Positions 47,667 through 60,625 of a stretch of DNA of 64,000 nt are shown here, one piece after another. A program made the translations under genes and the position numbers. The DNA comes from Rossellomorea aquimaris (GTDB taxonomy: Bacteria; Bacillota; Bacilli; Bacillales; Bacillaceae_B), in contig NZ_JXZC01000001.1 of the NCBI RefSeq assembly GCF_000935355.1, positions 124,001-188,000 of the forward strand, in the 5' to 3' direction. Below the pieces are notes generated by a model. The model saw nothing but the letters and a program-made list of their open reading frames with translations. It was not told the DNA's origin and made no database searches. Every line of letters begins with the position of its first letter. Positions within the stretch are counted from its first letter, which is position 1.

Positions 47667-47814
47667 TCCTTGTAGCATTTTCTTGGTGCTTGCAGTCAGG
47701 AATAGAGAGATATTTTTACTATTATATTCAAAAAATCAGTACAAAAATAAATTTTTAGAGCTCCTTACATGATTTCATTTAGAAAACTATGATAGAATAA
47801 TGATAATCGAATAG

Positions 47815-47955
47815 GTTTCCTTCGGGGCAGGGTGAAATTCCCTACCGGCGGTGATGAGCGCATGCTCTCAGTCCGTGACCCGTCTAATGAAAATTAGACG
47901 GTGGATTTGGTGGAATTCCAAAGCCGACAGTGAAAGTCTGGATGGGAGAAGGAAC
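47815..47955 (+). promoter_or_regulatory. FMN riboswitch (RFN element)
   Basis: The conserved core is present: CTTCGGGGCAGGGTGAAATT, CCCTACCGGCGGTGAT, GGATTTGGTGGAATTCC, AAAGCCGACAGT and GTCTGGATGGGAGAAGG, closed by TTCCTTC/GAAGGAA as P1. FMN binding would favour the terminator at 48059 and switch off the rib operon. The variable arm is a CGTCTAAT/ATTAGACG hairpin. Confidence 0.97.
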
Positions 47956-48058
47956 GGCAGTATTTACTTGATGCAGACGCGAGAAGTCTCTCTTTTTTGG
48001 GAGTTGTGTTTCCAAAAAAAGAAATCATGTAGATGCTTTATTTAGTCATGCCAACTTC

Positions 48059-58465: not shown

Positions 58466-60010
58466 TTAAAACAAATTAAAAATATAGGGTCCAATGGAAG
58501 TGGCATAAAGAAGAATGTAAATACCCATGAAATAGAACACTCCACCGAAAGTACCCCAGTCAGGGTCTCTTCCAAATTTCCATAGAAATGTAGTAATGAC
58601 GCTGATCACGAGTAATAGTACATACTCACTTCCTGAAAACATCAGGTATCCGGGTGCAGCAAAGTGGAAGTAATCGCCCATCGCTTTAGTGATAAAGGTT
58701 AGTGGCATTACTAGAAACATAATGATGGAAGCATATTCGACCCAGTTGATTTCTTCCTTCTCAAATATATTGGGTTTAAAAATATAAAGCAGAATTAAAA
58801 GAAATAGAGATGGAAGTACCCAATAGAATGAAACCATGATTGTGATTAAGCTGCTGAATATCATAAGAACGGAATTGTTTACGGCTTCTTTGACACTTCG
58901 TTTCGACCATTCGGTGCTTTTGGCGATAACCTGTGCATCCTGTGAAGCACCAAATAATTCATAAGAATCCCCATCATAATCCAACCAGGCAATGCTATAC
59001 TTGGTAAGCTGAACTGGAGAATAAGAAAAATGTTTGGTTGTACTGACTGGAGCCGCTTTTAATTGATCAGAGTCACTGAAAGGTGCTACATATAGACTAA
59101 TTGCATTATCATCCCCGACCCGATGACCTTCAGCTGTGAAGAGGATGGATTTTTCTCCATTAATAGAAAGAAGTTGTGCGGTTCTTGGACTTTCAAGTTT
59201 ACCCCCTGACATTTCGTTCGTAAAATCAATTTTTGTAGGCTTCAAAATAGAAGATCCTATTTCATCTATCGTTGTTTGCAGCTTGAAAATTTTATATGAC
59301 AATGTTCCCTGGGCTCGCAACTCTTCATTGTAAAGAAGAGTTAATTGATTATTTTCTGTGGTAAATGTCAATCCATTAATTTGATGATTCGTTGCTGTGT
59401 TTACGATGGCAAAGGGATCTTTCACTACTTGTAACGTATCATCCATATAGTACAGGTGAGAGTGACCGTCATCCTGTCTTACCTGTACTACGGCATTGCC
59501 ATTATTTCCAATATAGACGTCCTGGATTTCATTAGAAAAGCTGAAAACCTCCTTCATTGATAACTCAATGGGATTAAGAGAAAAAAGGTTTTCTTTATTC
59601 CAGAAATACACAGAGTTCATTGCCGTGCTGATTCCTGTTGCTTCCTCAGCAATCGTCGTTACTTCATTACTCACTGTAGAGATTAACTTGTCATCTTTGA
59701 TCTGAATGACTTTTGTAGCGTCTGTCCAAAAAGGATGGCCACGTGTAACGCTGGTGTTTAGAGTTGTTTCTTTGATAGAACCCAATGATCCCTTAAACCC
59801 CGTTATTTTCCCTTTGCTGGCCAAGAAGAGTCCTTCCTCTCCATTAAAGATGACAGGACGTTCTTCAGAAGTGTAGTTTAACGGGATGGATCTGCTCCAG
59901 TCAGGCTGTGGTAGTTGTTTCACTTGTAACAGCTGGTGGAGAAATAATGCTCCTATAAACAGAACGATTAACACTAAAGGTATTCCAAATGATTTGAATT
60001 TCGCTTTCAA
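58466..60010 (-). CDS. Large membrane protein with extracytoplasmic beta-rich domain
   Basis: A 514-residue protein: an N-terminal helix (FGIPLVLIVLFIGALFLHQLL), about 350 residues of repeating beta-rich sequence that could be a propeller-like domain (several NxxYxWN/LYYMDD-type strands), then four or five C-terminal helices. TTG 60010 has AGAGGGGG 7 nt upstream. No family recognised. Confidence 0.7.
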   Translation of the reverse strand: MKAKFKSFGIPLVLIVLFIGALFLHQLLQVKQLPQPDWSRSIPLNYTSEERPVIFNGEEGLFLASKGKITGFKGSLGSIKETTLNTSVTRGHPFWTDATKVIQIKDDKLISTVSNEVTTIAEEATGISTAMNSVYFWNKENLFSLNPIELSMKEVFSFSNEIQDVYIGNNGNAVVQVRQDDGHSHLYYMDDTLQVVKDPFAIVNTATNHQINGLTFTTENNQLTLLYNEELRAQGTLSYKIFKLQTTIDEIGSSILKPTKIDFTNEMSGGKLESPRTAQLLSINGEKSILFTAEGHRVGDDNAISLYVAPFSDSDQLKAAPVSTTKHFSYSPVQLTKYSIAWLDYDGDSYELFGASQDAQVIAKSTEWSKRSVKEAVNNSVLMIFSSLITIMVSFYWVLPSLFLLILLYIFKPNIFEKEEINWVEYASIIMFLVMPLTFITKAMGDYFHFAAPGYLMFSGSEYVLLLVISVITTFLWKFGRDPDWGTFGGVFYFMGIYILLYATSIGPYIFNLF

Positions 60011-60120
60011 ACGTATCCCCCTCTATTCTCTATCTCTATAATATGAGCTCAATTTAGAATTTTACCACAATTCACATTTGGAGGCACCAAATATTTCCTT
60101 CGGTAAATAAGAGTATTATG

Positions 60121-60149
60121 TTGACATTTAATAAAAGAGGGATTACAAT
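60121..60149 (+). promoter_or_regulatory. Strong sigma-A promoter of the Fur-regulated RNA
   Basis: Consensus TTGACA at 60121-60126, a 17-bp spacer and TACAAT at 60144-60149. No gene starts on this strand for 200 bp. Confidence 0.75.
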
Positions 60150-60169
60150 GATATTGAAAATCATTCTCA
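60149..60169. promoter_or_regulatory. Fur box
   Basis: TGAAAATCATTCTCA at 60155-60169 matches the 7-1-7 Fur consensus at 13 of 15 positions. An overlapping element at 60149-60163 (12 of 15) is offset by 6 bp, as in classical Fur boxes. It covers the transcription start of the promoter. Confidence 0.75.
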
Positions 60170-60285
60170 TTTGAACAAAAGAGTTTCCCCCTCTTTCAAT
60201 AGAGAGAATGGTTCATGAAAAACCCCCTTTATTAGATATAAAAAGACAGACCCGAAGCATTTGCTTCGGGTCTGTCTTTTTATAT
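60156..60285 (+). ncRNA. Fur-regulated small RNA candidate, FsrA-like
   Basis: A transcript from about 60156 would run about 130 nt to a very strong terminator. It carries two unpaired C-rich patches, TTTCCCCCTCTTTC (about 60185-60198) and ACCCCCTTT (about 60221-60229), which could pair with ribosome sites. No open frame with a ribosome site lies in it. B. subtilis FsrA is likewise Fur-repressed, short and C-rich. Length and exact ends are inferred. Confidence 0.65.
60241..60285 (+). terminator. Terminator of the small RNA
   Basis: AAAAGACAGACCCGAAGCA (60241-60259) and its exact complement (60262-60280) form a perfect 19-bp stem with a 2-nt apex, ending in TTTTTAT. Confidence 0.92.
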
Positions 60286-60349
60286 TGCATTTCATTTCTT
60301 CCTGTCGTAAATTGTTAAAGAATGTGTTATTTAAGGAGGGGAAATGTAA

Positions 60350-60625
60350 GTGGATCATAAAGAAGATAAACGGTTCAGGGTTGCACGTCACGAGGCACTG
60401 ATAGGAGTAGCACTTGTTCTTATAAATTTCTTATGGTGGTATGGTTTTGCGTTCGGATTAGGTGGTCAACCGGTTTCAGATTACGATTGGATCCTCGGGA
60501 TGCCTGAGTGGTTTTTTTACAGCTGCATCGTTGGCTTTTTCCTTATGGTATTTTTAGTGATTATCGTCGTAAAGTATCTGCTTACTGATATACCTTTTGA
60601 CGAGGAGGGGGAGGATCATGAATAG
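60350..60625 (+). CDS. yhdT: YhdT/DUF997 family membrane protein
   Basis: A 91-residue protein with two helices and the DUF997 string LINFLWWYGFAFGLG followed by ILGMPEWFFYSCIVGF. It is the standard companion of PanF. GTG 60350 lies 8 nt after AAGGAGGGG. The stop overlaps the panF start by 8 nt. Confidence 0.87.
   Translation: MDHKEDKRFRVARHEALIGVALVLINFLWWYGFAFGLGGQPVSDYDWILGMPEWFFYSCIVGFFLMVFLVIIVVKYLLTDIPFDEEGEDHE

Follow-up and report, generated by a model that had tools for sequence, protein, structure and literature searches.

Rossellomorea aquimaris carries, at 60156–60286 of the window (the whole 64,000-nt stretch of DNA that was analysed), a segment with the appearance of a small RNA gene under iron control. 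This raises the questions of whether such an RNA would spare iron, which mRNAs it would be aimed at, and how it is related to FsrA, the RNA of Bacillus subtilis with which a first-pass annotation had compared it. Judged from sequence comparisons, the locus is likely to encode a Fur-repressed, trans-acting iron-sparing small RNA aimed at citB and sdhC. It is apparently FsrA/IsrR-like in kind and a separate sequence family, IsrR having been compared by description. The features of the locus are collected in Table 1.

Table 1. Features at the small RNA locus (window positions)
Feature	Position	Strand	Remarks
Promoter	60121–60149	+	−35 TTGACA 60121–60126, 17-nt spacer, −10 TACAAT 60144–60149
Fur box TGATATTGAAAATCATTCTCA	60149–60169	+	21 bp; two overlapping 7-1-7 motifs offset by 6, on the inferred start site
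Small RNA	60156–60286	+	About 130 nt; start placed from the promoter, end from the terminator
Outer helix (predicted)	60159–60213	+	60159–60168 (transcribed Fur half-site) with 60204–60213
Patch 1	60178–60196	+	CCCCC 60187–60191; predicted hairpin AAAGAG/CUCUUU, 4 of 5 C in the loop
Patch 1 seed UUCCCCCUCU	60185–60194	+	Complement of the citB ribosome-binding site
Patch 2 GGUUCAUGAAAAACCCCCUU	60210–60229	+	CCCCC 60223–60227; mostly unpaired in the predicted fold
Intrinsic terminator	60235–60286	+	Perfect 24-bp stem 60235–60258/60263–60286, 4-nt loop, U-rich 3′ arm

Promoter and Fur box

The promoter matches 11 of 12 consensus positions and is the best of six promoter-like sites between 59500 and 61000, which bears out its earlier description as near-consensus. 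Both hexamers are matched in all 36 Rossellomorea loci when permissive patterns are used. The double Fur-box match previously noted on the start site also holds. Its two motifs have 3 and 2 mismatches to what we take to be the 7-1-7 consensus; the site is the sole 2-mismatch Fur site of the entire window, and nowhere else in the window does an overlapping pair occur. At up to three mismatches the window has 13 Fur motifs, a number not above chance (mean 9.15).

The 20-nt core of the box (GATATTGAAAATCATTCTCA) is identical in 35 of the 36 loci. Elsewhere in the same genome, boxes that differ from it by one to three letters adjoin genes for a FecCD permease, a siderophore-type binding protein and a second permease (two of the three named through Pfam), while in three stretches of relatives similar boxes adjoin similar permease genes (two cases) and an unassigned lipoprotein gene (one case). 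Because such boxes lie beside siderophore and FecCD permease genes, the box at the small RNA is very probably read by Fur in this genome, and the gene is very probably switched on when iron is scarce. The Fur control originally proposed is thus strengthened both by the constancy of the box and by the company that similar boxes keep.

The RNA and its coding potential

The RNA begins with a predicted non-coding part of about 80 nt, which contains the two C-rich patches described earlier, each with its CCCCC run, and ends in a perfect terminator. That the terminator hairpin is perfect had been recognized; its stem is 24 bp rather than the 19 bp first given. The folding z-score of the whole RNA is −10.9, with the terminator as the largest helix. 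In an alignment of 25 sequences the arms of the terminator covary between species, pairing being kept through changes on both sides. The outer helix of the consensus fold (25 sequences) consists mostly of invariant pairs with few one-sided changes, and so has little covariation support.

The segment had been described as free of any supported gene, and both ORFs found there were rejected: that on the minus strand (74 aa, 60167–60391) because its length is not constant in the 7 relatives examined, and that on the plus strand (60208–60318) because its frame continues through the terminator and C runs differ in length by single bases from one species to another. A Fur-controlled short mRNA, or a dual-function RNA encoding a small protein, would fit the position of the AUG codons at 60208 and 60215, which lie after a purine-rich stretch, but with the 60208 frame entering the terminator and the second C run varying by single bases, such a product is highly improbable.

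Conservation in Rossellomorea

The locus is present in all 36 Rossellomorea genomes searched. Patch 1 (AAGAG, 0–3 nt, five or six C, T) occurs at every one, a second run of at least four C follows it at 30 (the other 6 are without), and the terminator was recovered by pattern scan at 34. This conserved arrangement is beyond chance. The surroundings are also partly kept, with a 514-residue membrane protein (mem514) beside 28 loci and a DUF997 protein beside 28. At least one known neighbour was found at 33 of the 36, and none within the fetched stretch at L034, L035 and L044. Pfam named the DUF997 protein and a sodium:solute symporter among the neighbours, and gave no match for the 514-residue protein. 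In one Rossellomorea lineage (L036–L039 and L043) the RNA is shortened and has just one C patch; at L037 a downstream segment, GAGUGAUGA, pairs with the sdhC leader instead of patch 2.

In a pattern search of named genomes, 27 of 31 matches fell on Rossellomorea or Bacillus contigs, and the other four on unrelated organisms (Desulfosporosinus twice, Parablautia, and an archaeon bin). The two Desulfosporosinus genomes (L070, L078) match the Fur box plus CCCCCTC pattern, which may be chance.

Homologues in other genera

For a wider search, 24 sequences of the RNA, trimmed of the terminator, were made into a covariance model, and 84 of 397 genomes of the order gave a match to it at E 0.01 or better. 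The model's sensitivity is incomplete, one member of the genus (G011) having been missed. Sixteen of the loci outside the genus were viewed: four are free-standing homologues, four are leader-type, and eight were rejected by eye. The clear free-standing homologues (G061, G137, G111 and G053, from four other genera) have a Fur box, C patches and a terminator, and score from 65.9 down to 33.9 bits. None of the genus neighbours was found within 1.5 kb of them, and such different surroundings are as expected of a trans-acting RNA.

The leader-type loci (L095, L097, L100 and L108, from G103, G237, G341 and G187, respectively, each near position 1500) come from one other bacterial family. They consist of a Fur-box stem with a C-rich loop, lying upstream of genes that were assigned by eye to nitroreductase-like proteins or ferritin. 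In place of a free small RNA, they show a CCCCCUC loop with an inverted Fur-like partner.

Complementarity to citB and sdhC leaders

The two patches had been read as separate seeds, to be compared with the 5′ regions of genes such as sdhC and the aconitase gene. Each patch complements a different mRNA, patch 1 that of citB and patch 2 that of sdhC. The citB ribosome-binding site, AGAGGGGGAA, is exact in all 35 readable starts of the genus, and in 31 of 35 cases the genome's own RNA contains the exact complement, UUCCCCCUCU. The four exceptions are a single lineage, in which 9 or 10 consecutive citB pairs still form; overall, patch 1 makes at least 10 consecutive pairs with citB in 34 of 35 genomes and 9 in the remaining one. 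In the sdhC leaders, AAGGGGGG is likewise exact in 35 of 35 genomes. In the window genome, patch 2 forms 7 consecutive pairs with the sdhC Shine-Dalgarno sequence and then, after an internal loop, pairs with the start codon. Runs of 7 are found in 15 genomes (this one included), of 8 in 7, of 9 in 7, of 11 in 5 and of 6 in one. Pairing across the sdhC start codon involves the RNA element UUCAUGA, present at 25 of 36 loci. These counts leave out citB of G013, G137 and G038 (start unreadable) and sdhC of G009 (contig end) and G137; leaders of sdhA were read in 34 genomes, 31 of them of the genus. Since the sdhA Shine-Dalgarno sequence is equally conserved, conservation of these sites alone does not discriminate between targets.

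Energies were ranked in the window genome among 70 leaders (65 window genes and five candidates). By duplex energy, sdhC was first for patch 2, while for patch 1 citB was 7th and sdhB 10th; when both partners were allowed to fold, sdhC came first, sdhB second, citB 11th and sdhA 24th. The G-rich site of sdhB, AAAAAGGGGGAAAT (L259 3007–3020, contig C5 of the same genome), is the one that ranks second in this structure-aware comparison, which suggests two contacts of the RNA on one operon. The two best partners of patch 1 are the leaders of mem514 and of the SSF symporter, at window positions 59990–60040 and 60590–60620. Many genomes of the genus keep the G run of the mem514 leader; the G run of the symporter leader is not conserved.

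Taken alone, the energy ranks of citB and sdhC are modest evidence, given how often ribosome-binding sites are G-rich. The window genome has 389 cases of AGGGGG placed 4–11 nt before an ATG, against 185 for the reversed pattern, and the citB and sdhC leaders are G-rich even in most sampled relatives that are without the RNA. With sites of this kind so frequent, complementarity within a single genome does not settle the targets. The energy test performs poorly on published pairs as well: FsrA in G077 ranks its own citB leader 6th of 28 and its own sdhC leader 23rd of 29.

AGAGGGGGAA itself occurs at 28 places in the window genome (19 for the reversed control). At 17 of these, some ORF of at least 60 aa begins just downstream; few of the products are iron-protein-like by eye, with Pfam applied to two of them. 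Target lists drawn from 14-mer complements (30 loci per search) and from all 28 places were set aside, as they consist mostly of genes that are not iron-protein-like. Besides citB, the metal-protein matches singled out were hmgA, for homogentisate 1,2-dioxygenase, and a gene for a cupredoxin-like protein. The hmgA gene (L294, C33:141230, same genome), which encodes an iron enzyme, has the same AGAGGGGGAA site as citB and is a possible extra target; it was picked by pattern, so that its rank is biased.

Co-variation of the RNA and its predicted targets

A swap test compared the duplex energy of each RNA with leaders of its own lineage and with those of other lineages, after removal of row and column effects. 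It covered nine lineages with at most 5 or 6 genomes each: six within the genus (A to F, grouped by us) together with G061, G111 and G053. The measure is duplex energy without accessibility, and the lineages are not independent draws. For citB the diagonal residual was −3.44 kcal (permutation p 0.001, the same in a second run), and for sdhC it was −1.35 to −1.39 kcal (p 0.010 and 0.008 in two runs), while the control, sdhA, gave p 0.5 with 8 lineages. Without G053 the values were p 0.010 for citB and 0.07 for sdhC; with the R. marisflavi lineage removed as well, they were 0.040 for both. Permutations within the genus gave 10/720 for citB and 140/720 for sdhC, and for the neighbours 5/24 (SSS487), 22/24 (DUF997) and 3/6 (mem514). 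Before the row and column correction, same-lineage citB pairs were not the stronger ones (−23.8 vs −26.3, genus).

A related view comes from ranking each lineage's own leader against others. Among 26 citB leaders, the other 25 drawn from genomes that have no free-standing homologue, a lineage's own leader came first in C, D, E and G053; its rank was 3rd in G111, 4th in F, 5th in B, 8th in A (the lineage of the window) and 13th in G061. For sdhC, with 26 other leaders, the own leader took rank 1 in A, B and D, rank 2 in F, rank 3 in G053, G061 and G111, and ranks 15 and 20 of 27 in C and E. Two cases are the clearest. In G053 the duplex between the RNA and the citB leader of that genome runs almost unbroken for about 20 bp, at −37.1 kcal, where the 25 other leaders have a median of −19.4. 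In the R. marisflavi lineage there are 14 consecutive pairs with the own citB leader, and these include positions that changed on both sides. Where the RNA has changed, the targets tend to have changed along with it. A few lineages contribute much of this co-variation, of which there is little in the lineage of the window itself.

These results bear on the reading of the locus as a Fur-regulated RNA with generic anti-Shine-Dalgarno seeds, acting on many mRNAs in the manner of RoxS/RsaE or serving as a sponge, with no special iron-sparing set. Hundreds of AGGGGG–ATG arrangements are available in the genome, citB is equalled in pairing by several window genes, and the mem514 and symporter leaders head the patch-1 ranking. 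Yet the citB and sdhC pairings follow lineage changes while that of sdhA does not, pairing reaches the sdhC start codon, and the structure-aware ranking of the 70 leaders is headed by sdhC and sdhB, all of which makes generic targeting distinctly unlikely.

Relation to FsrA, IsrR and other small RNAs

FsrA is 84 nt long and has sdhCAB and citB as published targets (PMC12871923). In FsrA of the relative G077 (locus L045), as at the present locus, there is a Fur box at the promoter, a C-rich patch and a terminator. The Fur box overlaps the promoter in the window sequence, and by computation there are C-rich seeds complementary to the citB and sdhC ribosome-binding sites; the pairing with iron-enzyme mRNAs that marks an iron-sparing RNA is likewise a computed one. 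The first-pass annotation had called the RNA a functional counterpart of FsrA and longer than it. Its patches complement two FsrA targets through pairings that track lineage changes, which favours the former, and the lengths of about 130 and 84 nt agree with the latter. Unlike FsrA, the window RNA has one patch in a loop and the other free, apparently with one main target each.

The likeness does not extend to the sequence family, and a proposed check against the Rfam FsrA model (RF02273) came out negative, with 18.7 bits at 60208–60275 against a gathering score of 80. The best score of this model in the same genome, 22.3 bits, lies elsewhere. Among 101 relatives it has three matches at E 0.001, one of them over the cut-off and none in Rossellomorea; two weaker matches in relatives, L046 and L047, look like terminators without a Fur box and were discarded. 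An orthologue of FsrA that has drifted beyond the Rfam model would be compatible with the same mechanism, and the common layout (TTGAC promoter element, Fur box, C-rich patch, terminator) and identical predicted targets speak for it. Besides the low Rfam score, however, a run of the genus model on L045 with the filters turned off and E values as high as 10 allowed gave no match to FsrA on the plus strand. The neighbours differ too: for four proteins encoded beside the window RNA, the best match within 1.5 kb of FsrA in L045, the one genome compared, had an unconvincing E of 0.096. Hairpins and patches are also arranged differently by eye. We regard descent from FsrA as unlikely, and the RNA as apparently a separate family.

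IsrR of Staphylococcus is Fur-repressed and found throughout its genus, has single-stranded C-rich regions, and pairs with mRNAs of TCA-cycle and Fe-S enzymes including citB (PMC9410917, PMC11257911). The window RNA is similarly genus-wide, with predicted Fur repression, C-rich single-stranded regions and citB pairing. Compared by these descriptions, IsrR has three C-rich regions and two Fur boxes, and the window RNA two patches and one overlapping double box. Aconitase and succinate dehydrogenase are published targets of both FsrA and IsrR (PMC12871923, PMC9410917, PMC11257911).

The window RNA resembles RsaE/RoxS in being a C-rich RNA aimed at G-rich ribosome-binding sites, as that RNA is described in PMC12871923. 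Its score with the corresponding model (RF01820) is 28.6 bits, below the gathering score of 79. RsaE/RoxS is controlled by other regulators and is not known to be under Fur. Among Gram-negative bacteria, RyhB, PrrF and similar RNAs follow an iron-sparing logic and have some targets in common with the window RNA; no Rfam match to them reached the gathering score in the window. The same held for small RNAs in general in the Rfam scan of the window. A further 43 matches below gathering score (STnc370, MicC and others; three viewed as alignments) were taken as terminator or chance. An FMN riboswitch is located at 47814–47957 (115.3 bits).

Proposed mechanism and significance

When iron is present, Fur bound to the box over the start site would block transcription. 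When iron is short, the RNA of about 130 nt would be made, and patch 1 (UUCCCCCUCU), largely in its hairpin loop, would pair with AGAGGGGGAA, the ribosome-binding site of citB (aconitase), while patch 2 (GGUUCAUGA...ACCCCCUU), being predicted as single-stranded, would pair with the ribosome-binding site and start codon of sdhC. A further pairing site at sdhB is plausible. Pairing would block ribosomes and probably speed mRNA decay, and with ribosomes blocked iron would not be spent on aconitase and succinate dehydrogenase. Occluded ribosome binding on citB and sdhCAB under iron limitation has been published for FsrA and IsrR (PMC12871923, PMC9410917 and PMC11257911). By analogy, the RNA most likely saves iron by stopping production of these enzymes, as do the RNAs of Bacillus subtilis and Staphylococcus.

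A wider interpretation is more tentative, and we rate it somewhat below an even chance: that the Bacilli have in this RNA a third iron-sparing family, with an origin independent of FsrA and IsrR, a dedicated aconitase seed and a dedicated succinate dehydrogenase seed, each co-evolving with its target. In it, the transcribed Fur operator would double as a strand of a stem, and the leader stems at L095, L097, L100 and L108 may be a source or an offshoot. In the open-licence literature no paper was on this RNA by title for Rossellomorea, and the genus is absent among the iron, Fur and small RNA matches listed.

If the proposed reading is correct, the locus would add a natural example of RNAs that are apparently unrelated and belong to different Gram-positive lineages, yet share a regulator, a C-rich chemistry and two target enzymes. 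Co-variation of RNA and target across lineages offers a computational way to support targets, and predicts which compensatory mutations should work.
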